This document shows, one piece after another, positions 23,119 through 38,869 of a stretch of DNA of 64,000 nt (within the stretch, counting starts at the first letter, position 1; the number at the start of each line of letters is the position of its first letter). This DNA comes from Emcibacter sp. (GTDB taxonomy: Bacteria; Pseudomonadota; Alphaproteobacteria; Sphingomonadales; Emcibacteraceae), in the NCBI GenBank assembly GCA_021741205.1, contig JAIOYI010000001.1, forward strand, positions 1 to 64,000, read 5' to 3'. The position numbers were made by a program, and so were the translations under genes. Under the pieces are notes generated by a model. That model was not told the DNA's origin. It did not search any database and was given only the letters and a program-made list of their open reading frames with translations.

Positions 23119-23119
23119 A

Positions 23120-24320: not shown

Positions 24321-24326
24321 TCTTAA

Positions 24327-25169
24327 TTACTTCAGACCCGGATAATAATAGAGTGAATCCGTTCCTGGAATGGATGTTTCACCTTTAAAGTTTTTAAAAT
24401 TCTGAAATTTTGTTCCGCAGGTTGCTGATCTTTTATCGCAACCTGCAACAGCCTGATAACTATCTCCAACCATTATAATATTCGGCAAATTATCAAATAA
24501 TATAAACTGACCGCCTGAAAAATTTTTGACCTCTGATTTAAGACCGGCATTTGATCCCTTTAACCAACGCACCAGACCATAATCATACCACCCATCTGAC
24601 TCAGACCGTGTTATGTCTCTAAAGTTATTTCTGCTAAAAGCCTCAGTGACGCTGCCTGTGACCGAGAATTCTTCTAAATTGACATGACAATTATTGCCTC
24701 CTAAATCTGCCCGACATTCTGGTGAAAACACATCACCGATGACCTGTTGCAATCGTTGACTAAGACCTCTTATCTCAACAGTAAAATATTTATCCTTTAG
24801 AATGAATTCCCCAAGCCACCCATTTCGGATATGAAGTTTGCCTTGAACAGGTGCCTGCCAATTTATTTGAAATATCGAAATCATCGCATGATCAAACAGT
24901 CCTGATGAAATATCTTTGTCCGAAATGCCTTCAGAAGATAATAGAGCATTGATTTCAAGATTATCCACATTCAAACTATTGGTGCTACTCACGGATGACG
25001 GCAAAAAGCTATTTGCGGGACTAAAGATCAGATTATCAAACTCAATCTCTTTATCATGGGTCGCAAAAGCCATGCGCACTCCATCCTGACGTGTCAAAAC
25101 CCAACATGTCACCATGTTAGTTACAACCTCTGAAAGATGATTTTTAAGTTCTAAAGATATCGTTTTCAT
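24327..25169 (-). CDS. DUF2163 tail protein (GTA gp13-like)
   Basis: A 280-residue tail-tip protein of the DUF2163/phage BR0599 family, matching RcGTA gp13. The N-terminal half contains TCWVLTRQDGVRMAFATHDKEIEFDNLIF, typical of the family. The C-terminal BR0599 domain has FSPECRADLGGNNCHVNL and the final GCDKRSATCGTKFQNFKNFKGE, with paired cysteines. In RcGTA the equivalent baseplate protein carries an iron-sulfur cluster bound by four cysteines, and four matching cysteines are present here. It starts directly at the end of gp12 (stop and start adjacent). Confidence 0.9.
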   Translation of the reverse strand: MKTISLELKNHLSEVVTNMVTCWVLTRQDGVRMAFATHDKEIEFDNLIFSPANSFLPSSVSSTNSLNVDNLEINALLSSEGISDKDISSGLFDHAMISIFQINWQAPVQGKLHIRNGWLGEFILKDKYFTVEIRGLSQRLQQVIGDVFSPECRADLGGNNCHVNLEEFSVTGSVTEAFSRNNFRDITRSESDGWYDYGLVRWLKGSNAGLKSEVKNFSGGQFILFDNLPNIIMVGDSYQAVAGCDKRSATCGTKFQNFKNFKGETSIPGTDSLYYYPGLK

Positions 25170-27518
25170 TTACAAACGCACCTCGATCAATGAAATAGAT
25201 GGCACGTGCCCCGCCTTAAAACTCTCCAAGGTAATGGGCAGAAAATCTTCATAAAAGCGCACAGGAACATCAAACTCATAGCCTGCTGTAATCATGACCC
25301 CTGCAGCAGGTGCCACATCAAAGGTTATAACACCGTTTGTCTCGTCACATTGCCAGCCACTTGCCTGCTCTATGGCATCAAATGCAACCTTAACTGTCGC
25401 TGTAACAGGCTTTGCAATCCTTCTGGTCTGAGATATACCACCGCTGCTATAGGTTTTGATAAGCTGAAAAGAAACCGTAACCCCATCCCCAAGACCAATT
25501 TCCTGATCAGTGGACGAAATAATTTGTTCAGGAGAGGTACTTTTATAATCAATCCAGTCCTTATAACGAAAGCCATAAGCACGGCCTGCCCTCGCCCGAA
25601 AGAAACTTATTAAGTCCGCCAAATTATTTTCAGACCTTAACCCAAGTCCCACATCATAGATATTACGGGCCTCTGACCATTCCCGATTTCGTTGTTCATG
25701 GCCCGACGCCATTTCAATGATATTGGTCATAAATTGTGGTCCACCACTTGCCCCGTAACTGATGTCCTCTGGCAAGCGTATTTCGTGAAATCCTGTCATG
25801 TCGCTTCCTTGATCTATGGTATAAATAACGCCGTCCCGCACAATTTGGGGATAGGCCCAGACAAATATCTCTGTAAAGCCGTCCTTAAATCCAAACCTCG
25901 CCGCCTTCATAATGTTCTTCCAATTTTCTGGCGTTGAGGGTAGGAGATTGAAACCTGCAAAATAATGGGTCTGTGATCTGGGGTAAGATAAAGCCTGATC
26001 TATGGCCTTTATGGCGTTGGTTCTTTTGCCCCATTCCCCGCTTAAAACAAAATCATAATCCTCGATTTGCATATAATCAAAGGCAGGCCATTGCCATTGG
26101 TTAGCTGCAAAATTTGCACTCTGTGCCAAGGGTGCGTTATTCAACATGACTTGCGGACTATAAAAAAGCAGACCAATTTGTGCGGCGGGATATAATATTT
26201 TAATCTGATCCCGAAGCCATAAAGTGGATAACCCAAGTTTATTTCTAAGCCAATCAAGATAATCCTGCTGCAAGATTGTTGGAATTTCCGTGGCAAGAAA
26301 ATGCTTATCTGGTACTGGATTTGCCGTTTCAGACGTATAAAGTGACATGGTTACATCATCATAAAAGTGGGGCACCCCAAGACCATTTTGATCTATCCAC
26401 CACCAAGGTTCACCGATCTGATAATAATGACCTGATCCCACCTGGCCTACAATATCGCCAAAAGCCAAAAAGACATCCCTTAAGTAATCAAGTGCCAACT
26501 GATTTGTGGGCGCAATAAGACCAGAGGGGGGCGACCAACCTGTTCTGGCTGCTGTGCCGTCATGAGCCTTCTGTTGCCAAATTTCTGGAATATTCTCTGC
26601 TAATATTTCATAAGACAGGGAAAATATGACCTTAAAACCAAAAAAATTCGCGAGTTCCAGATAATTTTTATGCCAACTTATTGCAGCCTTATTTAATTTG
26701 GCCTTTAAGGGGTCAATAATATATCGCGCTTCAACCCCGTCCCAGCTTAAATTATAATAATGGCTCATGCCCACATAATGATTGATATAATCGCTGTAAC
26801 CCAGACGTAGCATATTCCATATTACCCGCTCAGGGGTCAGGTTTGTCACATCGTCATAACCATTAGCCATGCGCAAATTATGGGGCTTTACAAAGCCGTC
26901 CCCAACCTTAAGCGTCGATGTGGGACCTGTAACTTTAATGTCAGAAAGGATCACCCGACCTTCTACCGCACCGGGTAAGGGACCCGTGGTTATACCGTCA
27001 AAGTCAGATGGAACCATACTTATGAACATGCGGTCAATATCCGCTGGATAAACGGGATCTGCCTCGGCTGGATGAAGATAGCCCCCCGCTAGATTATCAA
27101 AATCTAGGGTAATGACCGCATCATCCACTGTGCCTATGGCATAATTCCAAAGCCGCACATACCATGTTCTGGCACCCCCATTCTGATCCCGTCCTTCTAT
27201 GGTCAAAGTAGGGCTGTGCAAGAGGTCTAGCGTCTTGATATTACTGCTCTGCCAACGAAAACTTAACACCGTATGGGCGTAATTTTTGCGGGTTTCATAA
27301 CGGTGAAAGGGGTGATCAAATAAATCTTCTGATTCCCAAATAAGCCCACATAAATCCTCATAACGATAAAAGACAAGATCAATAACAAGACTGTTATAAC
27401 CAGACGTTATCACGGACGCCATCATTGGGCGGGGGAAGTTCACCGTCCAGTAACGGGGCGAAAAACGCCGCACAAAGCTCGTGTCCGTTTGATCCTCTGT
27501 TGTGGCAATCCAATACAT
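25170..27518 (-). CDS. DUF2460 distal tail protein with large N-terminal fusion (GTA gp12-like)
   Basis: A 782-residue protein. The last about 205 residues (from EIRLPEDISYGASGGPQFMTNIIEMASGHEQRN) are a DUF2460/TIGR02217 domain, which alone forms the roughly 210-aa RcGTA gp12 distal tail protein. The first about 575 residues are extra. A beta-rich start (VNFPRPMMASVI, LTIEGRD) is followed by a region with features of a TIM-barrel glycoside-hydrolase-like fold (VIFSLSYEILAE, IGEPWWWIDQNG, FDYMQIEDYDFVL, GFTEIFVWAYPQ). The neighbouring gp15 lacks the TIM-barrel usually found there, suggesting a domain exchange. The start overlaps the gp11 stop. Confidence 0.8.
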   Translation of the reverse strand: MYWIATTEDQTDTSFVRRFSPRYWTVNFPRPMMASVITSGYNSLVIDLVFYRYEDLCGLIWESEDLFDHPFHRYETRKNYAHTVLSFRWQSSNIKTLDLLHSPTLTIEGRDQNGGARTWYVRLWNYAIGTVDDAVITLDFDNLAGGYLHPAEADPVYPADIDRMFISMVPSDFDGITTGPLPGAVEGRVILSDIKVTGPTSTLKVGDGFVKPHNLRMANGYDDVTNLTPERVIWNMLRLGYSDYINHYVGMSHYYNLSWDGVEARYIIDPLKAKLNKAAISWHKNYLELANFFGFKVIFSLSYEILAENIPEIWQQKAHDGTAARTGWSPPSGLIAPTNQLALDYLRDVFLAFGDIVGQVGSGHYYQIGEPWWWIDQNGLGVPHFYDDVTMSLYTSETANPVPDKHFLATEIPTILQQDYLDWLRNKLGLSTLWLRDQIKILYPAAQIGLLFYSPQVMLNNAPLAQSANFAANQWQWPAFDYMQIEDYDFVLSGEWGKRTNAIKAIDQALSYPRSQTHYFAGFNLLPSTPENWKNIMKAARFGFKDGFTEIFVWAYPQIVRDGVIYTIDQGSDMTGFHEIRLPEDISYGASGGPQFMTNIIEMASGHEQRNREWSEARNIYDVGLGLRSENNLADLISFFRARAGRAYGFRYKDWIDYKSTSPEQIISSTDQEIGLGDGVTVSFQLIKTYSSGGISQTRRIAKPVTATVKVAFDAIEQASGWQCDETNGVITFDVAPAAGVMITAGYEFDVPVRFYEDFLPITLESFKAGHVPSISLIEVRL

Positions 27519-28108
27519 TATAGATCCCTTTCGGCACGATCCATGGCACGGCGTACGGCAACAGCCACCTGCCCTGCACTTCGGCTTGTCATGTCGTTTG
27601 AAGCACCTTGATTGGTGATATTGATTGTAATATTGCTTGGTCGACCTGTTCCACTCGCACTACCTCTTCCTTGTCCATTTGTGATGGAATTTGGTATAAT
27701 ACGACCTGCATTTTCTGGCACAAAAAGCTCTGGCCCCCTTTCTCCCACAAGATAGGGTGCGCGTGCATTAACGGAACCGCCACCCGCCCGACCAAAGAGG
27801 GCGCCGCTCACAATGCTCCCAAGAGAATTGCCGATACTGCTGCCCCCAAATAAATTATTTAAGCCAGACTGAATAGCGCTATTGGCAATATCATTTAACA
27901 CCGACAAGGCGACCTGACGAAGACTTGAAAAACTAAGTTCGCCAGAACGGGCAAAATTAGCAAACATACGGGTCATACCGTCCGAGGTTCGAGCAGCAGC
28001 GGTTTCAAGTCCACCAAAATCTTTTTCAATATTGTCAAGCTGTCCCCGCAGGTCAGCGCTATCAGCTCTGATTTTTACGACTAGGCTGTCGAGTATGGTT
28101 TCTGTCAT
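27518..28108 (-). CDS. short tape measure protein (GTA gp11-like)
   Basis: A 196-residue tail tape measure-like protein, as in RcGTA gp11. The start at 28108 (MTETILDSLVVKIRADSADL) is chosen over upstream codons because it opens the conserved segment LVVKIRADSADLRGQLDNIEKDFGGLE. The upstream part would also read through a terminator hairpin. A central helix (LSFSSLRQVALSVLNDIANSAIQSGLNNLFGG) and a glycine-rich segment precede the family motif YLVGERGPELFVPENAGRIIPN. The C-terminus is amphipathic. An intrinsic terminator lies just 12 bp before the start codon, implying regulated read-through. Confidence 0.88.
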   Translation of the reverse strand: MTETILDSLVVKIRADSADLRGQLDNIEKDFGGLETAAARTSDGMTRMFANFARSGELSFSSLRQVALSVLNDIANSAIQSGLNNLFGGSSIGNSLGSIVSGALFGRAGGGSVNARAPYLVGERGPELFVPENAGRIIPNSITNGQGRGSASGTGRPSNITINITNQGASNDMTSRSAGQVAVAVRRAMDRAERDL

Positions 28109-28120
28109 AATTTTTCCCAT

Positions 28121-28145
28121 AAAAAAACCCGCCAAATAAGGCGGG
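28121..28145 (-). terminator. intrinsic terminator inside GTA cluster, before gp11
   Basis: Read on the minus strand, CCCGCC (28145-28140), loop TTATTT, GGCGGG (28133-28128) and a run of seven T (28127-28121). It is a textbook terminator on the sense strand of the cluster, 12 bp before the gp11 start codon. Confidence 0.85.
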
Positions 28146-28175
28146 CTTGATAAAAATGAATGGCTAGAAAAATAA

Positions 28176-28469
28176 CTAGCGCACAATATTGGCCAGGTTA
28201 AGCAAAGATATGGTGGCTCTGCCGATCAGAAACATGCCTGAATAGATCATGACATTGACCCATTTCATTTCCGCATATCCGCTATTGATATATTGGGCAA
28301 GAAAGACCAAAAGCATCACAAGACCAATGCCCTGCAATAAATTGGCACATAATTTTACCCCCCGCAAAATACGGGTGCGTTTCGGATCGGCCTCGGGTTT
28401 GATACCGGCTTTTCTGTCTGCAACCCTTTGACGTAGGGGTTTACGTGTTGTTGAATCTTTGACTGTCAT
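28176..28469 (-). CDS. small two-helix membrane protein inside GTA cluster
   Basis: A 97-residue protein I cannot assign. A basic N-terminus (KPLRQRVADRKAGIKPEADPKRTR) is followed by two hydrophobic segments (LLQGIGLVMLLVFLAQYI and VNVMIYSGMFLIGRATISLL). Two-helix small basic membrane proteins are typical of holins, but no endolysin is adjacent and the position between the tail chaperone and tape measure genes is unusual for one. It has no strong ribosome site. The gene is followed directly by the terminator at 28121-28145, so it looks like the last gene of a transcription segment. It could be a late insertion into the cluster. Confidence 0.6.
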   Translation of the reverse strand: MTVKDSTTRKPLRQRVADRKAGIKPEADPKRTRILRGVKLCANLLQGIGLVMLLVFLAQYINSGYAEMKWVNVMIYSGMFLIGRATISLLNLANIVR

Positions 28470-28478
28470 ATGAGCAAA

Positions 28479-28694
28479 TTACAACGTCTTATCACCAGAT
28501 ACAAGTGCATTTAGCTCTGCACGGCTCAAAGAATTTTGACCCACTGATTTTCCTAGGATTTTTTGCCAACCCCGATAAGCACACCAGAAATCTGACGGTG
28601 TCGCCCGCCAAAATTCATCTGGCGACCAACCAAAATTAACATAAGCGATTTGCGCATATCCTGCCCAATTAATCTGTTGAGTTTTCTGAACCAT
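28479..28694 (-). CDS. tail assembly chaperone (rcc01693/gp10.1 family)
   Basis: A 71-residue protein of the small phage tail assembly chaperone family that follows gp10 in RcGTA-like clusters. The pattern YVNFGWSPDEFWRATPSDFWCAYRGWQ with conserved aromatic residues, then LSRAELNALVSG, is characteristic. It starts inside the last codons of the preceding gp10 gene in another frame, overlapping by 26 bp, which fits translational coupling or a programmed frameshift pair as in other tailed phages. Confidence 0.85.
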   Translation of the reverse strand: MVQKTQQINWAGYAQIAYVNFGWSPDEFWRATPSDFWCAYRGWQKILGKSVGQNSLSRAELNALVSGDKTL

Positions 28695-29004
28695 CTAATC
28701 CCACAAGACATAAGGTAAGTAAATCACGCACAGTGGGGCTAATTTTTACAATTCCCCCCGACAACAGCAAGTTACCCACCTGCTCGAAATTTATTTTTTG
28801 CTCCATGGTTGCCCAGATAATCACGGTCATTTCCTTAAGACCCATATTGCCCTCTGAGGCCTTGACCGCAAGGGCAATGATACTGCCAAGCCGATCTTCA
28901 ATATCCATAATGGCTTGAAAGGTCGGCTTAAGACGATATTCTTCACCCCCAAGCGTTACTATGATGCTATTTTTAAAAGCAATATCATGCCTATGATCAA
29001 ACAT
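28669..29004 (-). CDS. GTA gp10-like tail tube chaperone protein
   Basis: A 111-residue protein of the gene transfer agent gp10 family (GTA TAC-like). Start at 29004 (MFDHRHDIAFKNSI) is preferred, because the upstream extension overlaps the previous gene and lacks family features. The core VTLGGEEYRLKPTFQAIMDIEDRLGSIIALA, with the basic-acidic alternation, matches the family's typical FAIMRIEERLG-like segment. It overlaps the major tail tube gene by 8 bp and the gp10.1 gene by 26 bp. Confidence 0.85.
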   Translation of the reverse strand: MFDHRHDIAFKNSIIVTLGGEEYRLKPTFQAIMDIEDRLGSIIALAVKASEGNMGLKEMTVIIWATMEQKINFEQVGNLLLSGGIVKISPTVRDLLTLCLVGLDGSENSTD

Positions 29005-29410
29005 TGGAGAAGCCCACCACGCCTGAACTTTCCAAAGCAATATTATAGGTTCTTTCCCCGTTATAATCTCCCGCATATTCCAATGATGTCACCTGAAAGG
29101 CACCCGTGAAATTGGCACCACTTTCAAAAGTCACCTGATAATTATCCACACTACTGGTCAGTGCCTTGGTCTGAAGCAAGGTCTCGCTTGCAGAATTTGT
29201 AAAAATACCACTACCTGCAAGGGAAATATGCCGATTGCCCGCCCCAGATAATATTTCCCGCCAACCACCAGACATTTTATGGCTAACATCAACCATCTCA
29301 TTATTAATGCGCAGTGATGTAGATCGCATTCCGCCCACCACATCAAATATCTCTGTGGCCCCACCATCGCCAATTTTCAATAGGAAGGCCCGGCCTTTTT
29401 CTGCTGTCAT
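28997..29410 (-). CDS. major tail tube protein (GTA gp9-like)
   Basis: A 137-residue major tail protein of the RcGTA gp9 type. It contains KGRAFLLKIGDGGATEIFDVVGGMRSTSLRINNEMVDVSHKMSGGWRE, a pattern diagnostic of siphovirus-type tail tube subunits in GTA clusters (GM.ts..iN...vDvT...S.gwRe). A C-terminal beta segment, FTGAFQVTSLEYAGDYNGERTYNIALESSG, follows. It polymerises into the tail tube. Confidence 0.93.
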   Translation of the reverse strand: MTAEKGRAFLLKIGDGGATEIFDVVGGMRSTSLRINNEMVDVSHKMSGGWREILSGAGNRHISLAGSGIFTNSASETLLQTKALTSSVDNYQVTFESGANFTGAFQVTSLEYAGDYNGERTYNIALESSGVVGFSNV

Positions 29411-29443
29411 CTGTTTAGTCTCCTCAATCTAACTGTAAAATAT

Positions 29444-29851
29444 TTATAAAATTTGGATGGTACGGCCTCGGAATCGTAAAATACCGTGATTAACCTGACC
29501 ATCCCCGTCAAAAAAATTCTCATAAAAAAAGAAATTCAACCCAACAAGCTCATGTCCATCAAGGTTGAGATTTTGTCCCGAAAGAAGTGTTGCAACCTGA
29601 TCGGAAAGCTTTCTCACTTCGCTGCCCCCTTTATGTCCAGACCAGATATGAATATCAATGAGATGTTCCTGCCCCTTGAAATCCTTAGCTGACCAATCTG
29701 TTGCGCTGCCGTCGCCTATGGTGATGTAGGGCAATTTTTGTCCCTCTGGAGCTGGGTCAAGAATTCCTGAAATTGTGGACATCAAATTATTGTCACTGGC
29801 CAGTTTGTCATAAACGGCCTGCCACAGGCTTTGCATTGCAAATTGCGTCAT
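29444..29851 (-). CDS. DUF3168 tail terminator protein (GTA gp8-like)
   Basis: A 135-residue DUF3168 protein, the family that caps the tail tube at the head end in RcGTA (gp8). Typical features are AVYDKLASDNNLMSTISGILDPAPEGQKLPYITIGDGSATDWSAKDFKGQEH and DIHIWSGHKGGSEVRKLSDQVATLL. It is preceded by the HK97-gp10-like gene with a 32-bp gap and followed by the tube gene. Confidence 0.9.
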   Translation of the reverse strand: MTQFAMQSLWQAVYDKLASDNNLMSTISGILDPAPEGQKLPYITIGDGSATDWSAKDFKGQEHLIDIHIWSGHKGGSEVRKLSDQVATLLSGQNLNLDGHELVGLNFFFYENFFDGDGQVNHGILRFRGRTIQIL

Positions 29852-29883
29852 AGTAATATCTTTCCATAAAAGGGGCGGGATGA

Positions 29884-30207
29884 TTAGGGGTTAAGCTTTG
29901 AAATTAAATCCGAATAGGTCACCTTTACCTCCTCAACCGAAGGCGTCAAAAAAGGACGGGGTGGGAATTTTACGGTTCCAAACTCCACATAGCGGGCATA
30001 GGATATATCCGTTAAAACCCGAAAATTATTATCCCCATCTTTTTCAACTCTGATGGACTCTGCAAGCGGACTATTACCGCTTTTATGGTTTAAATTCCGG
30101 TAAACCCGCTTTTTCGAATTTTCCGCAATCTGACCAGCCATCTTTTCCATAAGATTCACAAGGGATTTATCATACTGATCCATCCGATAAGATAATTTCA
30201 AAGTCAT
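29884..30207 (-). CDS. HK97 gp10-like head-tail joining protein
   Basis: A 107-residue protein of the HK97 gp10/minor tail family. It has KNSKKRVYRNLNHKSGNSPLAESIRV (small-basic helix followed by a sNhksGnLa-like turn) and YARYVEFGTVKFPPRPFLTPSVEE, which is the family signature. It probably sits between head closure and tail terminator. RcGTA itself lacks a separate gene of this family at this place, so this is a difference from the basic plan. It has 2 bp spacing to the previous gene. Confidence 0.85.
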   Translation of the reverse strand: MTLKLSYRMDQYDKSLVNLMEKMAGQIAENSKKRVYRNLNHKSGNSPLAESIRVEKDGDNNFRVLTDISYARYVEFGTVKFPPRPFLTPSVEEVKVTYSDLISKLNP

Positions 30208-30209
30208 TT

Positions 30210-30527
30210 TCAGGGATGATCCTCTACCATATGAAACTCTAAAATCTGTTTTCGATTATCGGGGTTAAGCATGCTCAAAACTCGATAATTTTTCCCCTGC
30301 CAAAGAATATTTCTGGTAGCAAGAAGCCTGTCGTCGTAACGAATACGGACCAGATAGAGGGGAGAGAGATAACGTTGTCTTGCTGCATTTTTTATGTCCG
30401 ATGATTTAACAATGACTTCTGCCCAAACCATAGCAATATCTTGCGAGCTTTCTTGAAATTCCCCCGCCAAGACCGAGGTCAGAATTTGTTTCTGACAGGT
30501 GATTTTATGATGCAATGATCTCGTCAT
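30210..30527 (-). CDS. head closure / head-tail stopper protein (GTA gp7-like)
   Basis: A 105-residue protein of the phage head-tail joining (SPP1 gp16-like) family. The start at 30527 (MTRSLHHKITCQKQIL) gives a TAATG overlap with the gp6 stop, typical of coupled translation. The extension upstream overlaps gp6 and is not conserved-looking. Family features are MVWAEVIVKSSDIKNAARQ, VRIRYDDRLLATRNILWQGKNYRVLSMLNPDNRKQILEFHMVE. Confidence 0.85.
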   Translation of the reverse strand: MTRSLHHKITCQKQILTSVLAGEFQESSQDIAMVWAEVIVKSSDIKNAARQRYLSPLYLVRIRYDDRLLATRNILWQGKNYRVLSMLNPDNRKQILEFHMVEDHP

Positions 30528-31084
30528 TATAAGGATACCCGTCGATAAGATTGCCATAATCTTTCCGCCAAAAGATAGGCCTGATTTTCTGCTAATCGTC
30601 CGCCGTCATAGGCACCTGCTATCCAATGCAATATCCCAAGGCGGATATCATGAGGAATTGCATTCTGATGATCCCCAAATCCTGCACTAATGGTTATTCT
30701 AATACCAGACACATCTCGCTCTGGGTCTGGCCATAAAAAGCCTGATATGGGTATGATTTTTGCCCCATATGACATATTATCCAGACTATAGTTGATCGCA
30801 CTTATTTCTTGAAATATATCCGATGACCAATATTCAATTTTATCCACAGAAAGAATGGGAGAAAGCGGAATTTCAATGACACCCTCCTCCCAATCATTCA
30901 AGGTCAGTTGCCATTGCTGAGCGATTAGTTTACGTCCGATAAAATTTTCGCAACAATTCATGGCCGCTCTGATGTACGAGACCAATAGGGCATCTTCATC
31001 CTCATGGGAAATCTTAAGAAAGTCCCTGACCTCAGACAATAAAACAGGAAGTTGTGCGGGGGCTGTTATAAGTTCAATTTTCAT
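30527..31084 (-). CDS. head-tail connector (gp6 / phiE125 gp8 family)
   Basis: A 185-residue head-tail connector. The start (LITAPAQLPVLLSEVRDFLKISHEDEDALLVSYIRAAMNCCENFIGRKLIAQQWQL) is a clear phiE125 gp8/HK97 gp6-like adaptor signature. A beta-rich middle (IPLSPILSVDKIEYWS) and a helical end (IRLGILHWIAGAYDGGR) complete the fold. It overlaps the preceding fibre-tail adaptor gene by 4 bp. Confidence 0.9.
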   Translation of the reverse strand: MKIELITAPAQLPVLLSEVRDFLKISHEDEDALLVSYIRAAMNCCENFIGRKLIAQQWQLTLNDWEEGVIEIPLSPILSVDKIEYWSSDIFQEISAINYSLDNMSYGAKIIPISGFLWPDPERDVSGIRITISAGFGDHQNAIPHDIRLGILHWIAGAYDGGRLAENQAYLLAERLWQSYRRVSL

Positions 31085-31374
31085 TTTTCTTCAATCCTGA
31101 TGCTGATGGTTCGTTCATCCGTTCGGCTCTGATTGGTCACAATTCTGTTGGTCAATTGATAAATATGACCCGCAATTCCACCCGATACAAAAACCGTAGC
31201 AACATTCGATACAAGAGGGGGAATGTGATCAACAGCCAGATCATTGACAGAACCTTCGGGAAATATAAACCAATCGCTCGTCATAACCTGTTCCGTATCC
31301 AACAGATAATTTGTCGCCCAATCGATGACATAATCAATGACCGCATTAGGGTCTTTAATAAATTGCTCACTCAT
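31081..31374 (-). CDS. phage fibre-tail adaptor-like protein
   Basis: A 97-residue protein. The start at 31374 (MSEQFIKDPNAVIDYVIDWATNYL) overlaps the end of the preceding gene by 4 bp. The pattern DWATNYLLDTEQVMTSDWFIFPEGS, then ATVFVSGGIAGHIYQLTNRIVTNQSRTDERTISIRIEEK, is that of small phage proteins annotated as fibre-tail adaptor or head decoration partners. It is absent from the RcGTA core order. It forms a module with the next two upstream genes. Confidence 0.75.
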   Translation of the reverse strand: MSEQFIKDPNAVIDYVIDWATNYLLDTEQVMTSDWFIFPEGSVNDLAVDHIPPLVSNVATVFVSGGIAGHIYQLTNRIVTNQSRTDERTISIRIEEK

Positions 31375-31754
31375 AGGGTTGGATCCGCAATTTCTATATC
31401 CCACGTCCCAAGAGTGAGCGAACTACCCGCCGTAAGACCAAGAGCCGTACAGGTGGTCACATAAAGCAGGACACTGTTTACCGTATCAAGTAAGGCAACA
31501 TGATCAGCGGTTCCCGTATTATCCACCGTAATGCCTGCCTTTTCTATGATGGAGACTTTGCGACCACTCACATCACCATTGGCAAGAATAAAGTCTGTTC
31601 CCGTCATAATAACATCGGCCAGAAAATTTAATCCGCCCACATTTGCCGCCGCAAAGTCCGCCGGTTGCCCCGCACAGGCGGTCATAAGTGTACATTTTGT
31701 CTTTATTTCATTGAGTGCCGCATCCAGCACACTATCATTGACTATTTTTCCCAT
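31371..31754 (-). CDS. conserved phage structural protein, unknown role
   Basis: A 127-residue protein commonly found in phage head or fibre modules. An alpha-helical start (MGKIVNDSVLDAALNEIKTKCTLMTACAGQPADFAAAN) is followed by beta segments (SGRKVSIIEKAGITV, HVALLDTVNSVLLYVTTCTAL) and a Gly-Thr-Trp end (TLGTWDIEIADPTL). The C-terminal strand layout suggests a capsid-attached or fibre base protein. I cannot name a family with certainty. Two bases separate it from the LamG protein gene. Confidence 0.7.
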   Translation of the reverse strand: MGKIVNDSVLDAALNEIKTKCTLMTACAGQPADFAAANVGGLNFLADVIMTGTDFILANGDVSGRKVSIIEKAGITVDNTGTADHVALLDTVNSVLLYVTTCTALGLTAGSSLTLGTWDIEIADPTL

Positions 31755-31756
31755 AA

Positions 31757-33208
31757 TTAGATCCTTAATGTTCGATTGTTGGAAGGTTGTATTTTTCTGG
31801 TTCTGGTCGCAGAGGATAAAACCCTGCGAGCCTTCTGCGCTTGATGTCTTCTGGCGGGATGGGGGCTATAGGATAACGGATCATATAAGCCAATATTATC
31901 GTTGCTTAATCCATGGGCAGCATTCATGGTGAGCAGCGCATGAAGTTGTATAGGCGTCAAAATATCCGATGCGAGCAAATGTAGAGCCGTCAAAATATTT
32001 AAAGAAAGCCCCAGATTTAAAGAAATATTATCATTCGTGAGGTTATGACTACTTTTGTGAATAGTTATTCCGTGTAACTGCGATAAAGCCGAGCCATCCG
32101 AGGTCACAGTATGATTTATGGGCGATATAGCAAGCACAGAGCCAGAAGCCGCAACAGATGTTCCCGCCGTGGCAAAGGTGGCAGGTGCAGATTGATTATT
32201 ATATTCCGTGATATACCAGCCATCGGTATAGCTGTTCATATCCACAACTAAATTATCGATCAAACCCGTGTAATATGACCACGAATAGGACGCTGTCTCA
32301 TAGCCTATGGCGAGTTCACCCGTTGAGGAAACCATAGCCAAGGCATTATTGGAGGCGGGTGTGATCAATACACCATTCACCAGCACCTTAAAATAGCCAC
32401 CCCGAGCGCTGTCATAGTCAACGTCAATCTTCTGCCATATCCCCGCACTAATCACCCCAGAGGAGGAAATCCATCGAGTGCTAGAGCCGCCCGAATAAAC
32501 CCGCAAAGACCCCGTAGCATCCCATAATCCTATACGTAATTCTTGGGTGCCGTTTTTATCCAAGAAAACAGTTCTCTTTAAAACGTCTGGTTTAATCCAA
32601 AATGAAATGCGTCTTGTGGTATAGGATACGGGCAAGGGGTTTGGAATATTAACCCCATCATCAATACCATCTAAATGCAGGGCTTGATTAATTTGTCCTG
32701 TTTGTAAGTCCCCAAGCACCATAGACCCCGTGGTTGTGCCATCAACATTACCCGAACTGTCTATTATTTGTGGTGCTGTTACCGAAGGATCATCATTTAA
32801 GTGATAGACTACTTTTTGAGCCGACCAAACCGCATTGCGCCCATAAGGATCGGTGGCAAGGGGCTGCACCTCACCCGCTTTCTTATACCAAACATAAATT
32901 GTGGTATTTGCCATATAAGATACGCTCGGCACTTTGACATGTATCTCACAAATCCGACTGGCGGGGGTGGCTGATGTGACAAAGGACACAACCTCACAAG
33001 GAAGCTGATTTGTTCCCGCCGCATCACTGGAAAAACGAATATCACCGCCACCGTTTAAAGCTGAATTTGCCCCCCCATCGACAATTTCAGAATTCAGGTA
33101 GTCAAGGGTGACCAGAAAAGGATAGTTGGTTAAATTTGCTGTACCATTGACCTTAGTATAGTCAATGATAATCGGCTGTTTTCTGCCCCATCCTGTTGGA
33201 AATGCCAT
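31757..33208 (-). CDS. DUF2341 plus LamG-like lectin domain protein, probable head fibre
   Basis: A 483-residue protein. The N-terminus (WGRKQPIIIDYTKVNGTANLTNYPFLVTLDYLN) through ANTTIYVWYKKAG is a DUF2341 domain, a beta-sandwich found in surface and phage fibre proteins. The middle (about 125-325) is a LamG/concanavalin-like jelly roll: VYHLNDDPSVTAPQIIDSSGNVDGTTTG, ALHLDGIDDGVNIPNP, RISFWIKPD and GLIDNLVVDMNSYTDGW. The C-terminal third has repeated LHxLxS segments and ends in a basic tail with KARRVLSSATRTRK. Carbohydrate binding at the particle surface is the natural inference. It lies just after the capsid gene and terminator. Confidence 0.8.
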   Translation of the reverse strand: MAFPTGWGRKQPIIIDYTKVNGTANLTNYPFLVTLDYLNSEIVDGGANSALNGGGDIRFSSDAAGTNQLPCEVVSFVTSATPASRICEIHVKVPSVSYMANTTIYVWYKKAGEVQPLATDPYGRNAVWSAQKVVYHLNDDPSVTAPQIIDSSGNVDGTTTGSMVLGDLQTGQINQALHLDGIDDGVNIPNPLPVSYTTRRISFWIKPDVLKRTVFLDKNGTQELRIGLWDATGSLRVYSGGSSTRWISSSGVISAGIWQKIDVDYDSARGGYFKVLVNGVLITPASNNALAMVSSTGELAIGYETASYSWSYYTGLIDNLVVDMNSYTDGWYITEYNNQSAPATFATAGTSVAASGSVLAISPINHTVTSDGSALSQLHGITIHKSSHNLTNDNISLNLGLSLNILTALHLLASDILTPIQLHALLTMNAAHGLSNDNIGLYDPLSYSPHPARRHQAQKARRVLSSATRTRKIQPSNNRTLRI

Positions 33209-33230
33209 GACTTATCCTTAATAAATTTAT

Positions 33231-33264
33231 CAAAAAAATAGGGACGACAAAACAAAGTCGTCCC
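33231..33264 (-). terminator. intrinsic terminator directly after major capsid gene
   Basis: On the minus strand GGGACGAC (33264-33257), an 8-nt loop, GTCGTCCC (33248-33241), then TATTTTTTT (33240-33232). It lies between the capsid gene end (33291) and the DUF2341 gene. It would give more capsid than tail mRNA unless bypassed. Confidence 0.85.
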
Positions 33265-33290
33265 CACAGTTTCTAGGAGGAAAAAATTTT

Positions 33291-34499
33291 CTATAAGGCA
33301 AATTGCAGCAGTTTGATCGCCTGATCGTTGGTCACGGCACCGCCTACCCGTTTTGTGGTATAGAAATGGACATAAGGTTTATTGGAATAGGGATCACGTA
33401 GAATCTTTGTCCCCATACGATCCGTTATGGTATAGGCGCGTTTCATATTGGCAAAACAAAGCGACAAAGATGATGCGGCCTTTGTTGGCATATCAGAAAC
33501 TTCCACCACAGGATAACCAAGCAAGGTGGATGGCGTTCCGCTTTCCATACCAGGTCGCCATAAATAATTGCCGTCCACATCTTTAAATTTACGGATTTCA
33601 GCAAGAAGGCTCGTATTCATATAAAATTTTGCTGCTGAACGATAGCCAGACTTCATAGCATGAATAATATCCACCAGAATATCAGACGGATCTGATACCG
33701 CCCAATTGCCTGCAACACCTGTCTTTAGGGCTTGAAGCTGACCAAATGTTCGGCTGCTGTCATCGGCGGTACTCACCGTATATTGCAAAAAGCCTTTTGG
33801 TTTGTTGGTACCATTACCATTCACGAAGGCATCATTTTCCTGATAAGAAAATTCTTCGGCAAGTTCCTCGGACAACCAGCGTTCCACATTAAAGTTCGCA
33901 TCATCTAGCATAGTCTGAGTGGCCGCAGGGTTGGCATAAATTTCGCCGAGTGGGGGAATGATTTCTTGTAAGGTTGGCGTGTTGGTTTCAACACGGGCGC
34001 CTGTTTCAGAAATCCAGCCAGAGGTAATACCTCCCACATTAACGAGCTTCTTATATCTTGAAGATCCAATCGCAACCACATTGGCATCCGCCCGAATAGG
34101 GGACAAATCCCGCAGACGTTTCTCAATTTCCTGATCCAATTCAATAGGAACCGCAAAGCCCCCATCGGTATCAATGGCCGTACTCAAAGCCTTTTGGTCC
34201 AGTTTCTGTTCATGTCCTTTACGAATAAAACCATTAAAGAAATGCTTTTTTTGCTCCAACTGCACCATATCTTGATCCTCTTTTAAGGATAGGTTAGGAC
34301 GATGTGAAGCAGCATGCAGACGATTTGCCTTAAGAGAAAGCTCATCCAATTCCTTATTCATGCGAGTTAATTTTTCTTCTGTCAGAACGTCTGTCTGCCC
34401 TTTGCTTTCAATGTCTGCTAATCTTTCATCATTGGCAGACTTGAAATTTTCAAAAGAACGGGTAAGATTTTCCAACGCCTCTTTGGTTTCCAGTGTCAT
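33291..34499 (-). CDS. HK97-family major capsid protein (GTA gp5-like)
   Basis: A 402-residue HK97-fold major capsid protein with its own scaffolding delta domain. Residues 1-105 are coiled coil (FENFKSANDERLADIESKG). The mature capsid starts near HFFNGFIRKG. Core motifs are LSTAIDTDGGFAVPIELDQEIEKRLRD, WISETGARVETNTPTLQEIIPPLGEIYANPAATQTMLDDANFNVERWLSEELAEEFSYQENDAFVNGNGTNKPKG and the end YVHFYTTKRVGGAVTNDQAIKLLQFAL. Protease processing by the next gene's product is expected. A small inverted repeat before its start could act as a weak terminator. Confidence 0.96.
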   Translation of the reverse strand: MTLETKEALENLTRSFENFKSANDERLADIESKGQTDVLTEEKLTRMNKELDELSLKANRLHAASHRPNLSLKEDQDMVQLEQKKHFFNGFIRKGHEQKLDQKALSTAIDTDGGFAVPIELDQEIEKRLRDLSPIRADANVVAIGSSRYKKLVNVGGITSGWISETGARVETNTPTLQEIIPPLGEIYANPAATQTMLDDANFNVERWLSEELAEEFSYQENDAFVNGNGTNKPKGFLQYTVSTADDSSRTFGQLQALKTGVAGNWAVSDPSDILVDIIHAMKSGYRSAAKFYMNTSLLAEIRKFKDVDGNYLWRPGMESGTPSTLLGYPVVEVSDMPTKAASSLSLCFANMKRAYTITDRMGTKILRDPYSNKPYVHFYTTKRVGGAVTNDQAIKLLQFAL

Positions 34500-34534
34500 A
34501 TAGTCATATTCCTTAATTAAAATGTAAAAATGCC

Positions 34535-35110
34535 CTATGATTTCGAATGATTAGGGCGGGGTTTATGCCCAGTGGCAGCACCAGAAGACGGTGGTGCCAT
34601 AAGAGCGGTTAAATGCCGAAGACCGGCAACTAATGCGGACTCGTTCACTGTCGTGACCTTTTCCGATTTAAAGGAAAATATTCGTGAGAATTCATTCATA
34701 GGAAAGGTCACAAGAGATATTTCCCATAAATCAACCTCCTTAAGTACCCGTACGCCATCCGAACGCTGATAAGATTTTAGGGTATGAAATCCAATGGAAA
34801 GACCGTCTAACGCCCTTGCATTCAACAGTTGGTAGGCTTCCCTTGCCCGTTCAACATCAAGAATAAGACGACCCTTAATATAAAGCCCCCTCTTATCCTC
34901 ATAGGCCTCATCCAAAATGCCCATAGGTTCCTTCGGATCATGTTGCCAAAGAAATTTAATGCCACCCGCTCCCCGATCTTGCAGAGATTTTTGAAAAGCA
35001 CCCGGCTCAATAAGATCATTGCCCCGATCAACCACATTAAACACACTGGCATAGCCCTCGAAATGACCAATTTGTCCATCGGGCATCATTTTTAAATCAT
35101 GTAATATCAT
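34535..35110 (-). CDS. prohead protease (GTA gp4-like, HK97 gp4 family)
   Basis: A 191-residue prohead serine protease (family U35/S78). Features are GYASVFNVVDRGNDLIEPGAF, ILDEAYEDKRGLYIKGRLILDVERAREAYQLLNARALDGLSIGFHTL and the catalytic-site segment DLWEISLVTFPMNEFSRIF. The nucleophile region LSIGF is typical. It cleaves the capsid delta domain during head maturation. It is directly adjacent to the small preceding gene. The C-terminal tail (MAPPSSGAATGHKPRPNHSKS) is disordered. Confidence 0.94.
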   Translation of the reverse strand: MILHDLKMMPDGQIGHFEGYASVFNVVDRGNDLIEPGAFQKSLQDRGAGGIKFLWQHDPKEPMGILDEAYEDKRGLYIKGRLILDVERAREAYQLLNARALDGLSIGFHTLKSYQRSDGVRVLKEVDLWEISLVTFPMNEFSRIFSFKSEKVTTVNESALVAGLRHLTALMAPPSSGAATGHKPRPNHSKS

Positions 35111-35431
35111 TTATTGTCCAAAGGTTTGTCCAAGCTGAATAAGCTTGAATTTGACGGCAAGCCCTAGCATCAGAGCCGAAAAACACAGACGCATGAGCCA
35201 ACGGATCACAGCCTGACGTGCGGTTTTTTTGGTATCGCGCCAACTGTCCAAAAGATCCCTAAGCTCGGAAATATCATGACCTGCATTCTCATCGCTTAAC
35301 CCCAATTGAGCGAGCGCACGAGCAGCCCCCTCTTCTGAGGCTTGTGCAATAAGAAGATAGATATTTTCATCAGAAACTTTTTGATCTTTTGCTTGACGCA
35401 CGGCCTGAAGAAGTCCAGAACCTATTCTCAT
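35111..35431 (-). CDS. small GTA gp3.5-position protein
   Basis: A 106-residue protein between portal and protease genes, the place of the RcGTA g3.5 gene. A helical body (LLIAQASEEGAARALAQLGLSDENAGHDISELRDLLDSWRDTKKTARQAVIRW) ends in one hydrophobic helix (LMRLCFSALMLGLAVKF). The helical stretch ELRDLLDSWRDTK followed by a C-terminal membrane segment matches what is known for DUF6127-type proteins of this position. Role in head assembly is unproven. It ends immediately before the protease start. Confidence 0.75.
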   Translation of the reverse strand: MRIGSGLLQAVRQAKDQKVSDENIYLLIAQASEEGAARALAQLGLSDENAGHDISELRDLLDSWRDTKKTARQAVIRWLMRLCFSALMLGLAVKFKLIQLGQTFGQ

Positions 35432-35442
35432 GACTTAACCCT

Positions 35443-36660
35443 TCATGGGTTACCAATACGATCACCATCCGTGAGCGCCCCAAGACCCACAACGGCTCTT
35501 TTCTCATTGATGGTCAGAAAATCTGCATCCCCGATACGCTGCCACAAGGCCTGACGATCACTGCTGAGAGCGGGAATGGAATCAATGTCATAGTCCAGTC
35601 GAAGATCATCTCCAAAATAAGGCGTGAGCCAGAAATTTAAAGATGACATAATTTTATCCATCATCGGAAGCAAAGTCATTCGCCATAAAGCACGATTAGC
35701 TTCCACATAATTGCTATAGGTATTATCACCTGGGATACTTAAAATCATGGGCGGCACCCCAAAGGCCAAGGCAATTTCTCGGGCCGATACATGTTTTGCA
35801 TTAATGAAGTCCATATCTGCGGGCGAAAAGGCCATTTGCTGCCATTTAAGACCACCTTCCAAAAGCAGTGGTCTTCTGGCATTGCGGCTGCCTTGGAAAT
35901 TTTCTTCCATTTCTTGCTTTAACCGCTCAAACTGTTCACTGCTTAAAACCGCATTTCCCTCTTTAGGTTCAAAGACCAATGCCCCTGATGGGCGGGCTGA
36001 ATTATCAAGTAAGGCCTTATTCCAACTGGACGCTGCATTATGAACATCAATGCTGTAGGCAGCGGCCTCTAAGGGGGACAGACCGTAATAATCATCGGTT
36101 GGATGAAAATTTTTCAGGTGCAATATGGTGCTTTTGCCTGTTACAGGGTCGACAGAGAATTGATGCTCCCGTCCCGATACCCCATAGACATAGGCTTTCG
36201 GCCAGCCGCTCGATCCAGGAATGACTTTGATACGGTCAGGCCGCAGGGCATAAAGCTCTAAAGGTCTTCCATCAGCCCCCAAAACCATTTCCACATAGCT
36301 GTTACCTGCAATATTAAGATAAGCATATACCGTTTCGAAAAACAGACCCCGACCCTGAGTAGGATTTGGTCTGTTTAACAAATCAAGCAACGGATGATGG
36401 GTAAGCTTTTGATCGCCTCGAAAAAGCTGTAATGGAACGGATGCGGCACTTTCAGACAATATTCTCACCGCACGGTGGGTAATAACATTCTTGCGGTAAC
36501 CCTCTTCGGCAAGACTTTTGTAATTGCGGCCTGACCAGCGGGCATCCTGAAGCCCCACCCACAAAGTTTCCGCCCCATTCATAAACGAGGCAACGGCACT
36601 TTGTTTCTGATCTAAATCGCTTGCTTTCTTCTTGCCAAATAATCGATTGAATGGTCCCAT
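35443..36660 (-). CDS. phage portal protein (GTA gp3-like, HK97 gp3 family)
   Basis: A 405-residue HK97-type portal protein, the dodecameric gate for DNA packaging. The start at 36660 (MGPFNRLFGKKKASD) is chosen for its strong ribosome site (GGAGAG) and family-like N-terminus. The longer frame would add 26 unsupported residues. Features are GYRKNVITHRAVRILSESAASVPLQLFRG, HPLLDLLNRPNPTQGRGLFFETVYAYLNIAGNSYVEMV, RPSGALVFEP, AFGVPPMILSIPGDNTYSNYVEANRALWRMTLLPMMDKI, all diagnostic. A 177-bp gap separates it from terL, with a weak hairpin. Confidence 0.95.
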   Translation of the reverse strand: MGPFNRLFGKKKASDLDQKQSAVASFMNGAETLWVGLQDARWSGRNYKSLAEEGYRKNVITHRAVRILSESAASVPLQLFRGDQKLTHHPLLDLLNRPNPTQGRGLFFETVYAYLNIAGNSYVEMVLGADGRPLELYALRPDRIKVIPGSSGWPKAYVYGVSGREHQFSVDPVTGKSTILHLKNFHPTDDYYGLSPLEAAAYSIDVHNAASSWNKALLDNSARPSGALVFEPKEGNAVLSSEQFERLKQEMEENFQGSRNARRPLLLEGGLKWQQMAFSPADMDFINAKHVSAREIALAFGVPPMILSIPGDNTYSNYVEANRALWRMTLLPMMDKIMSSLNFWLTPYFGDDLRLDYDIDSIPALSSDRQALWQRIGDADFLTINEKRAVVGLGALTDGDRIGNP

Positions 36661-36837
36661 GTCTCTCTCCAGTTCATGTGGTGAATTTAAAAATCGGACG
36701 AACGGCAAAGTGGGCCGAAAGGCTGCACTTATGCTCACAAAGCTTCTCTATAGTTTGCAGAAACGGTACCTTAGCCGCCGTCCGATGAAACCCGACTGCT
36801 TGGGACAATCGGGGGTAAAAATGTTCATAATGTTTGT

Positions 36838-38184
36838 TTAAAAATTTCTGATTTGTGGTCTGCCTGGTGTTTTAAGCAAAAGTTCCGTCACCGCCCAGAC
36901 CATCGCATCCACACGATCTGGGCTTTTGCCGTCGCTTAATCCCTCTGCGGTTAGGCTACACATTTGATCTTCAAGCTCAGGGAAGAAACCCTCATGCACC
37001 ACTCGCCCTTGCTCATACAATGCCGCCACGGGCTCCGCGCGTCTCACCTTTGAGCGGCTCGCTCTCACGGCACTATAGCTCACATTGGGATCAATTTGTC
37101 GCAACAGGCTTTCCACAAGTTCGCCGCCATTATTGACCTCGGCCACCAGTCTGTCGGCCTGAAATCGCTCGTAAGCCGCAAGAGCCGCCTTGGCCCATCC
37201 ATGGGGGCTTAAACCCTGTACTGAGCAATCCTCTATGATATAGGCTCTATTATTATCACGCCCAGCAACAATAATACCGCAAGTATCGGCGTTTTTGCCA
37301 CTGGTCACAGGCGGATCAACGGCCACAACAATACGTTCAAGTTCAGGGATCTGCCGTACTCTATACTTCTCAAGCAGATCCCTGTTCCACAAGGCACCCT
37401 GTACGTCACTTAAAATTTCACCATATATTTCCTGCCGGCCAATTCTTGTTCCCTCATACTGCCCCACGACTTGTTCAAAAAAACTTGTGGGCAAATTGGA
37501 CATATTGTCAAAAGTTGATCCTCGCACCACGTGGGTTCTGTTGTCTTTTACCAACTTCCTCAGTAAAGGTATATTGCGGGGCGTTGTTGTGGCTAATAGC
37601 TTTGGTGTTCTCCCAAGCCGTAAGCCCAACAATAGATTTGACCAGGTATCTTCAACATAACGCCATTTGGCGACCTCATCAGCCCAAGCGACATGATGCT
37701 GCGGTCCCCGTAACTGATCCGGTGCCTCGGCGGAATACAGAAAGGCCTGTATTCCATTTGGCCAGATCAGCTTTTTATTGGTGCTTTCAAAGACGGGTTG
37801 GAAATCAGGATGGGTAACCGCAAGCAATCCACTTTCTCCCTCTATCATGGTAAGGCGTCCATCAAGAAAACTATCCGCCACCAATGCAATCCGTTCTGGC
37901 GCCCCCTTTGGAGCCGTGAGTGGGCTATTTCCTTCCACAAGCCCTCTGATCCATTCAACCGCCGTTCTGGTTTTTCCAAAACCACGACCCGCTAAAATAA
38001 GCCAGCAAAACCAGTCTCCCTCTGGCGGCAACTGGTTCTTTCTCGCCCAAAAGCTCCAATCATGCTCTAAGGCGTCACATTCCTCTTCACTGATATCTTT
38101 GAATAATTCCTGGCGATGATCAGGGGCAAGAGAAGAAATCCATTCCGCAAGCGATCTATTTTCCCTGTTATCATCCTTTATCAA
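36838..38184 (-). CDS. large terminase ATPase-nuclease (GTA gp2-like)
   Basis: A 448-residue large terminase with both catalytic domains. The ATPase has Walker A ILAGRGFGKTRTAVEWIRG near residue 70 and Walker B-like HHVAWADEVAKWRYVEDTW. The C-terminal RNase H-fold nuclease begins at ERIVVAVDPPVTSGKNADTCGIIVAG, with the metal-binding Asp. The end VDAMVWAVTELLL is the conserved final acidic motif. It packages DNA. In RcGTA the same enzyme fills heads with random host DNA. The gene overlaps terS by 14 bp. Confidence 0.96.
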   Translation of the reverse strand: MIKDDNRENRSLAEWISSLAPDHRQELFKDISEEECDALEHDWSFWARKNQLPPEGDWFCWLILAGRGFGKTRTAVEWIRGLVEGNSPLTAPKGAPERIALVADSFLDGRLTMIEGESGLLAVTHPDFQPVFESTNKKLIWPNGIQAFLYSAEAPDQLRGPQHHVAWADEVAKWRYVEDTWSNLLLGLRLGRTPKLLATTTPRNIPLLRKLVKDNRTHVVRGSTFDNMSNLPTSFFEQVVGQYEGTRIGRQEIYGEILSDVQGALWNRDLLEKYRVRQIPELERIVVAVDPPVTSGKNADTCGIIVAGRDNNRAYIIEDCSVQGLSPHGWAKAALAAYERFQADRLVAEVNNGGELVESLLRQIDPNVSYSAVRASRSKVRRAEPVAALYEQGRVVHEGFFPELEDQMCSLTAEGLSDGKSPDRVDAMVWAVTELLLKTPGRPQIRNF

Positions 38185-38602
38185 TGGATTTATTCGCCAT
38201 ATTATCCAGTTTTTTTAACAGTCGGCTACGGGGAGATTGTTCCCTAAGCTTCTCATTGGTATCACGTCGCTTTTTACCATCCCCAAAAATTTCTGGTCGG
38301 TGGGCTTTTAATAAAAATATTGCAATTTTTTCATCCACCACTCGACCTTCGTGATTGTCGTTCAATTCTTTTCCCATCGCCTTATCCCACAAATATTCTT
38401 CTAAATAATCGAGCGCCTGATCCATGGCATTTTGCCATTTTTCCCTAAACTCTGGTTCTGTATTACGTCGTCTATAAACCAACGAACGATCAAGCCCCGC
38501 CTTAGCCGTCGCCACCGATACATTCCCCGTCTGCTGCAAGACCTCTAAAAAAAGATCTTCCTTTTTACTGCTCCATCTTTTGCTGGTATTTAATATTGCC
38601 AT
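38171..38602 (-). CDS. small terminase-like protein (GTA gp1-like)
   Basis: A 143-residue protein in the small terminase position at the head of the cluster. The N-terminus (WSSKKEDLFLEVLQQTGNVSVATAKAGLDRSLVYRRRNTEPEFREKWQNAMDQALDYLEEYLWDKAMG) is a helix-turn-helix typical of RcGTA gp1-like TerS. The middle AIFLLKAHRPEIFGD matches the family ending. A basic tail follows (SRLLKKLDNMANKSIDKG). It is preceded by a leader with an intrinsic terminator and a sigma-70-like promoter. It overlaps terL by 14 bp. Confidence 0.9.
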   Translation of the reverse strand: MAILNTSKRWSSKKEDLFLEVLQQTGNVSVATAKAGLDRSLVYRRRNTEPEFREKWQNAMDQALDYLEEYLWDKAMGKELNDNHEGRVVDEKIAIFLLKAHRPEIFGDGKKRRDTNEKLREQSPRSRLLKKLDNMANKSIDKG

Positions 38603-38732
38603 TCAGACCGCCTGACATAAAAAAACCGCCTTTCAAAAGAAAGCCGGTGATCCAAGGGTAAATACCCATATGCTGAAATGAACGGTTACTGGCTGCTTCC
38701 CAAGTGTTTTTTAAAGCCAATTTCCGACCATG
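38603..38732 (-). promoter_or_regulatory. structured leader of the GTA transcript (possible attenuator)
   Basis: About 130 nt between the predicted start of transcription and terS. It contains the short stem GGGTA/TACCC near 38656-38667, a possible TGGC/GCCA pairing (38720-38693 region) and the terminator at 38619-38648. No known riboswitch fold was recognised. The layout resembles a regulated read-through leader; a stand-alone small RNA ending at the terminator is the alternative. Confidence 0.5.
38619..38648 (-). terminator. intrinsic terminator in the GTA leader, before terS
   Basis: On the minus strand ACCGGCTTTC (38648-38639), loop TTTT, GAAAGGCGGT (38634-38625) with one mismatch, then a run of seven T (38625-38619). 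It lies 16 bp upstream of the terS start codon, on the sense strand. Confidence 0.85.
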
Positions 38733-38738
38733 AAATAA

Positions 38739-38767
38739 ATACTACACTACCTACCCCGCTTTGTCAA
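38739..38767 (-). promoter_or_regulatory. sigma-70-like promoter of the GTA cluster
   Basis: On the minus strand TTGACA (38767-38762), 17-bp spacer, TAGTAT (38744-38739). The -35 is perfect and the -10 matches 4 of 6. Predicted start of transcription is near 38732, 130 nt before terS. Confidence 0.65.
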
Positions 38768-38834
38768 GAATTAATTCCTATAATAGGAATAAAATGTTTT
38801 TAATTTTATTAAAATTTACCTAAATAAATAATAT

Positions 38835-38863: not shown

Positions 38864-38869
38864 TATGAC

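Follow-up and report, generated by a model that had tools for sequence, protein, structure and literature searches.

The 64,000-nt window analysed here, positions 1 to 64,000 of contig JAIOYI010000001.1 of Emcibacter sp. (GCA_021741205.1), carries on its minus strand a gene transfer agent (GTA) cluster of the RcGTA type, which runs from terS (38602) to an Rcc01698-like gene (end 20857). Comparison with relatives leads us to think that this cluster is probably controlled at elongation, through a strong promoter, a terminator in the leader and a processive antiterminator that is loaded at the promoter. A strong sigma-70 promoter would start transcription largely unaided, and without a special factor most polymerases would stop at the leader terminator, T1, after about 114 nt. 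The factor would load at the promoter by means of a DNA element in the spacer between the -35 and -10 hexamers and the conserved first transcribed bases. Once loaded, it would make the polymerase resistant to termination, so that T1, two further terminators inside the cluster (T2 and T3) and the terminators of inserted cassettes would be passed and the whole cluster transcribed. What the comparison establishes is the conservation of the cis-elements and genuine stems at the terminators; the stopping of polymerase at T1-T3, the strength of the promoter and the loading of a factor at it are what we infer. The initial annotation had proposed antitermination of the GafY/GafZ type, as in the Caulobacter GTA. 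The layout has stood, with leader terminator, promoter and start block conserved and with cassettes that fit it, but GafY and GafZ as its agents have not.

The promoter and the start block

Fifteen genomes of the Emcibacter family with a cluster were compared, the present one included, and 14 of them have the leader. The consensus-like promoter that the initial annotation had placed at 38739-38767 is indeed there, on the minus strand, with 10 of 12 consensus matches (TTGACA-17-TAGTAT). Its -35 is TTGACA in all 14 family promoters, and the 14 promoters can be aligned without a gap over the whole stretch that begins with the -35 and reaches to about transcript base 17. Over this 53-bp block (-35, spacer, -10 and first transcribed bases) 10 of the 11 congeners differ from the Emcibacter sp. 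promoter at 4-8 positions, the eleventh (L049) at 13, and promoters of two other genera at 14 and 16. Farther upstream, half of a palindrome, ATAGGA, stands 8 bp before TTGACA in every family promoter except that of L058. In L047 and L053, 43 and 44 bp separate the -35 from the end of a neighbouring coding sequence (by eye like a short-chain dehydrogenase), which argues that the cis-signals are compact and leaves no room outside the gene for a GafY site at -120. A G-10/Y-1/G+1 arrangement, a pattern associated with pausing, fits 11 of the 14 start regions by eye, a pattern easily met by chance.

In the genome of Emcibacter sp. the promoter pattern, with up to three mismatches allowed, is matched exactly by the GTA promoter alone, and the seven other matches are at control level. 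The palindrome pattern (two mismatches, 16 genomes) returned eight exact sites, all of them GTA promoters, and two sites with two mismatches, one of which (L099) lies at the former 5' flank in a genome that has undergone rearrangement. A phage origin of the promoter was considered and rejected: the promoter had 0 matches in viral contigs, and the 17-base start motif had seven, none behind such a promoter.

The leader and its terminator

The leader ends, as initially annotated, in an intrinsic terminator 16 bp before the ATG of terS at 38602, and this arrangement is conserved in 14/14 family leaders. T1 consists of a hairpin (38648-38625) with one G.G mismatch, followed by seven T that run to 38619. 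Its folding is more stable than expected (z -2.56; 4 of 200 shuffles equally stable), and it was missed by a simple terminator scan. The leader between the start block and T1 varies in sequence as well as in length (83-138 nt). In an alignment of 12 congeners, 84% of the cells of T1 are paired; covariation is 0.333 vs 0.179 +- 0.030 in shuffled alignments (0/500), slid structures reach at most 0.158, and eight cells have changed on both sides of the stem (1/500 shuffles).

Terminators within the cluster

Terminators after the capsid gene and before the tape measure gene had also been annotated, and both are found there. T2 has a stem at 33267-33238 and a T-run to about 33231, between the capsid gene (stop end 33291) and the next open reading frame (ORF; start 33208), and no shuffle of 200 was as stable (z -6.22). 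T3 (28148-28125, with a T-run to 28121; z -3.18; 1/200 shuffles) lies 12 bp before the ATG at 28108 of the tape measure gene, and its T-run directly precedes the other candidate ATG, at 28120. Scored only in clusters whose contigs reach the place, a strong stem with a U-tract is present at the T2 position in eight of nine (L058 is the exception), and one at the T3 position in six of eight (the exceptions are L049 and L059). Stems like T2 also occur in other families, at 2 of the 5 loci with a mapped capsid gene: L062, of a family with gafZ, and L065, of one without.

A simple scan of 19 kb on both strands gave 17 terminator-like sites vs 18.9 +- 4.0 in shuffles, and 50 promoter-like sites vs 42.5 +- 7.8. 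As counts at chance level are no evidence by themselves, it is the position of the sites and their conservation that must carry the claim. A second scanner reported 15 sense and 14 antisense terminator matches in the cluster; a U-tract score of 4.5 or more was reached by only four of these 29, namely T1, T2, T3 and the terminator of a divergent RNA candidate described below.

Cassettes between core genes

A gap of more than 700 bp between mapped core genes was taken as a cassette, the slot of an antisense gene (g280-g154) and the variable gene after the capsid gene being left out. By this definition there are seven sense-strand insertions in five relatives: between terL and portal in L048, L051 and L054, before the protease gene in L048, before the tail tube gene in L047, and before the tape measure gene in L048 and L050. 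Among the products are a Panacea antitoxin, which has a partner ORF, and an XRE protein (both L048), as well as an IrrE-like peptidase (L051); six of ten cassette proteins have no Pfam match at 0.01. Such cargo genes are called morons in phages.

A predicted sense terminator ends each of the seven cassettes before the next core gene, or seven of eight with the 1068-bp capsid-g127 slot of L058 included. Where the terL-portal boundary holds an insert, a terminator is found 21-40 bp before the portal match (3/3 loci); where it holds none, a comparable terminator occurs in 0/10 loci, L050 having a weaker one 212 bp away. Since core genes thus sit behind terminators brought in by cargo, read-through looks necessary. 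The predicted cassette terminators look like the strongest indirect argument for it, unless the cassettes bring outward promoters of their own. Conversely, the cluster could host self-contained cassettes because its polymerase, as proposed, ignores terminators.

Search for the known regulators

No GafZ was found with PF20057 in 24 family genomes, and the same model detected it in 13 of the 16 genomes searched elsewhere in the order. Profile A1, from an alignment of eight order relatives, gave one spurious match (G010, E 0.135, three stops) in 32 family genomes, and profile A8, from 20 class sequences and not run on a known positive, gave none in the same number at E <= 10. GafZ (DUF6456) was thus not found in the assembly of Emcibacter sp. 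(2.57 Mb in 18 contigs, 94% complete), and none of the 32 family genomes has a credible match. The lack of any GafZ-like protein was half of one outcome that the initial annotation had said would count against its proposal, the other half being uniform transcription through the cluster. In the order, gafZ adjoins terS in 11 of the 13 genomes that bear it. A RogA-like gene is strong in 12/16 order genomes; no match was obtained in the genome of Emcibacter sp., and the family gave only partial helix-turn-helix matches, the best of them in G005 and G018.

Of 14 loci in the class with a strong GafZ, 11 have a GafY-like ORF in front of gafZ or fused to it; of 14 order loci, none has. The suggested search for GafY homologues returned DnaA in 39/40 relatives, at sites of DnaA-family matches, and otherwise a single weak match (G007, E 0.005); PF08299 found only DnaA, in gafZ-bearing genomes as well, and was uninformative as a test for GafY. 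From these profiles gafY seems to be missing from the order, which does have gafZ, and both genes from the Emcibacter family, though there may be a diverged GafY. The suggestion of an IHF site near the promoter fared no better: with the IHF consensus and up to one mismatch, none was found within 150 bp upstream of the predicted start in Emcibacter sp., and relatives have no position in common, with perfect matches only in L050 and L058.

Other candidates were also set aside. A NusG paralogue of the RfaH/LoaP type was rejected, there being a single NusG in each of the family genomes G010, G013, G016 and G017; the two equal matches in G011 come from an assembly that is 5% contaminated. A regulator beside the cluster was likewise rejected, the 3' flank being syntenic in five of six relatives and made up of host genes, pilus genes first. 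Pfam detected no antiterminator among the 20 of the 47 flank ORFs of the window that were scanned, and no Q family among the window proteins scanned, no genome-wide search for Q having been made. Among open papers, none was found on GTA control in the Emcibacter family. Because the genome of Emcibacter sp. is 94% complete and has no NusG match, all these absences rest on the relatives. The proposed antiterminator is neither a GafZ that the profiles recognise nor, in the genomes checked, a NusG paralogue of the RfaH/LoaP type, and the best reading is that it has not been recognised so far or is too diverged to be recognised.

Comparison with known systems

According to the available part of the study of Tran and Le (2024, PMC11150451), GafY, IHF and GafZ act together on the GTA of Caulobacter crescentus, and GafZ binds between the -35 and -10 and lets the polymerase pass a terminator after gtaT. 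Both clusters are of the RcGTA type and have one promoter before the terminase genes, terminators inside the cluster (here predicted and conserved), a need for read-through (here an apparent one) and, as proposed here, a regulator site between -35 and -10. The Emcibacter cluster differs in that no GafY or GafZ was found for it and in having no conserved IHF site and no palindrome in the spacer. Also different are the terminators, which in the part of that study available are three 150-bp repeats after terL and here are intrinsic terminators in the leader, after the capsid gene and before the tape measure gene, and the -35, which is AATCAT in Caulobacter and the consensus TTGACA in Emcibacter. 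With a near-consensus -35 the Caulobacter promoter is reported to be independent of GafYZ and about sixfold weaker (PMC11150451). As that promoter is active with or without GafYZ, an activator may be less necessary in Emcibacter because its -35 is consensus.

The layout also resembles that of lambdoid PR'-tR' with Q, where, in the portion of the source available, a factor loaded at the promoter carries the polymerase past terminators (PMC6606751): a strong promoter, a conserved spacer and a short leader with an intrinsic terminator precede the genes. The start region of Emcibacter differs in having no clear -10-like pause sequence. AlpA of Pseudomonas aeruginosa, as far as the available text describes it (PMC7969949), is alike in that a terminator separates the first gene from its promoter, which has a spacer element, and different in controlling other genes. 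The Emcibacter cluster itself has the Q-type order, a promoter and then a leader terminator before the first gene, and the sequence between its -35 and -10, conserved in 14/14 family promoters, is a candidate Q-type element. Antitermination is also reportedly used by the GTA of Bartonella (BaGTA), going by the title of a 2025 paper by Korotaev; this is likewise a GTA, of another lineage.

It is tempting to suppose, and we do so only tentatively, that the family has lost the whole GafY-GafZ-RogA control, that its place may have been taken by a lambda-like pair of strong promoter and leader terminator, with a new kind of antiterminator to open it, and that the cluster hosts cassettes as phages host morons.

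Alternative explanations

Several observations weigh against a promoter-loaded antiterminator. No antiterminator was identified in profile searches of family genomes, and the Emcibacter sp. assembly has no match even to NusG, an essential gene that probably lies in an assembly gap. The start region has no good -10-like (TATAAT-like) hexamer by eye, and Q needs one; the spacer AAGCGGGGTAGGTAGTG is conserved but has no palindrome like that of the Caulobacter ZBE, again by eye. Two of five measures of T1 are unremarkable, namely pairs with double changes (3) and pair types (9), which 130 and 71 of 500 shuffles matched, and kinship among the sequences inflates the remaining covariation measures. 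Terminator-like sites are overall not enriched over shuffles. Finally, a motif model built from the Emcibacter family (f1) beats all 40 shuffles in only 4/15 order loci.

This last result bears on the idea that the antiterminator is a GafZ orthologue diverged beyond recognition, and the system that of Caulobacter minus GafY, which we regard as possible though doubtful. Several gafZ-bearing promoters of the order have TTGACA, TTGACT or TTGACG as -35 and then a start region like that of the family (CATGGTCGAGAGTTAGG in L060), an anatomy that also speaks for the promoter-loaded antiterminator; the likeness appears real for some loci and is unproven for the rest. The position of gafZ beside terS in most of the order genomes that bear it and the presence of weak DUF6456 relatives in the class would also fit. 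The two GafZ profiles, however, gave between them only the spurious match described above, A8 without having been run on a known positive, and no such gene stands at the place where the sister families carry gafZ. Nor would a dedicated antiterminator be needed if T1-T3 were leaky and set stoichiometry in favour of capsid over tail, the role ascribed to the terminator that follows the T7 capsid gene. The place of T2 directly after the capsid gene, in other families too (L062, L065), and of T3 before a low-copy tape measure gene would suit this, but it leaves unexplained both a terminator before every gene (T1) and the tolerance of cassette terminators just before portal, and we consider it unlikely.

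Distal genes could instead be served by internal promoters, which would make the terminators irrelevant and would count against the antiterminator. Promoter-like sites do exist on the sense strand, but in the numbers expected by chance, and none is as conserved as the main promoter, no systematic search having been made; this seems improbable to us. We give still less credence to the leader RNA itself as a put-like antiterminator, or as a switch at T1 (attenuator, riboswitch or leader peptide). Many leaders allow a 5' hairpin to be drawn, and most congeners a small one before T1, but against shuffles the 5' hairpin gave p values of 0.04-0.72 in the 14 leaders (combined about 0.05, by hand). 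Attenuation by a leader peptide was rejected, as leader ORFs vary in start, length and frame and three of 14 have no start codon at +2. No known RNA family was recognised either: Rfam gave no match at the gathering threshold, only a sub-threshold STnc100 in Emcibacter sp. (E 0.0077), largely on the terminator, and none in 12 related loci. Between these alternatives, the antiterminator loaded at the promoter is the reading that we retain.

The cluster and its surroundings

Besides terS, the cluster has the RcGTA-type set of terL, portal, protease, capsid, connector, tail tube, GTA-gp10, baseplate hub, NlpC/P60 and Rcc01698-like genes (Table 1). A search of 24 of the 32 family genomes matched terL in 12 of 15 congeners and also in G016 and G017, which represent two further genera of the family; G018-G023 gave no match. 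Seven core genes differ from those of L046 and L047, the only two relatives so compared, at 0.49-0.62 of third and 0.07-0.18 of second codon positions, and the aligned stretches are free of stops, the pattern of open genes kept by purifying selection. The variable gene after T2 had no tblastn match in L049, L058 and L059.

Table 1. Features of the Emcibacter sp. GTA cluster, in window coordinates
Feature	Coordinates	Strand	Remarks
Palindrome ATTCCTATTATAGGAAT upstream of -35	38774..38790	-	fixed spacing
Predicted sigma-70 promoter (-35 TTGACA, 17-bp spacer AAGCGGGGTAGGTAGTG, -10 TAGTAT)	38739..38767	-	conserved, 14/14 family promoters
Conserved initial transcribed region CATGGTCGGAAATTGGC	38716..38732	-	predicted start ~38732
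Leader RNA, ~114 nt	38619..38732	-	83-138 nt in 14 family members
T1, predicted leader intrinsic terminator	38619..38648	-	conserved, 14/14 leaders
terS	38171..38602	-	position and tblastn in relatives; no Pfam match
terL	36838..38184	-	Terminase_6N/6C
Portal	35443..36738	-	PF04860
Prohead protease	34535..35110	-	PF04586
Major capsid	33291..34499	-	PF05065
T2, predicted terminator after capsid gene	33231..33267	-	8/9 family clusters
Variable gene after T2	31757..33208	-	32-54% identity to relatives; no Pfam/PHROG match
T3, predicted terminator before tape measure gene	28121..28148	-	6/8 family clusters
Tape measure gene	27518..28120 (ATG 28120 or 28108)	-	PF09718 on ORF 27518-28186
Distal tail genes	20857..27518 (25170-27518, 24327-25169, 23120-23584, 20857-23118)	-	all downstream of T1-T3

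An antisense gene of 216 aa lies on the plus strand at 23670-24320, between the baseplate hub and NlpC/P60 genes, and is kept in four family relatives and one relative of another family. It has no Pfam or PHROG match, and its AlphaFold model (pLDDT 80) has no fold match in the PDB at E <= 0.001.

Upstream of the promoter, a candidate divergent small RNA (38835-39012, plus strand) has a promoter-like TTGCCT-17-TATAAT and a strong terminator at its end. Its predicted fold is very stable (z -7.6 for 38868-39012), it has no Rfam match at the gathering threshold or at E <= 1, and a similar sequence is found upstream of most family clusters, L046, L047 and L053 excepted. In these three a rearrangement has its breakpoint directly before the GTA promoter. 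In G013, whose 3' flank is still syntenic, the original 5' flank now lies elsewhere (L099) and still carries the small-RNA sequence. Contig L086, titled Desulfobulbaceae, has the same promoter and leader at 4300-5928, with Emcibacter-like neighbours, and its terS continues into a tail gene, which would fit a deletion or misassembly of the head genes.

Significance

The Caulobacter GTA has already been reported to use antitermination, and the title of a paper says the same of the Bartonella GTA. If it is true that the Emcibacter family has kept the terminators and the promoter anatomy and lost the known regulators, there is a GTA antitermination factor still to find. Taken together, the class with gafY and gafZ, the sister families with gafZ and without gafY, and the Emcibacter family with neither would form a natural series, and the 53-bp block with its 114-nt leader makes the question directly testable by reporter. 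Self-terminated cassettes in a GTA would show, moreover, that a domesticated particle is still taking up cargo genes in the manner of a phage.

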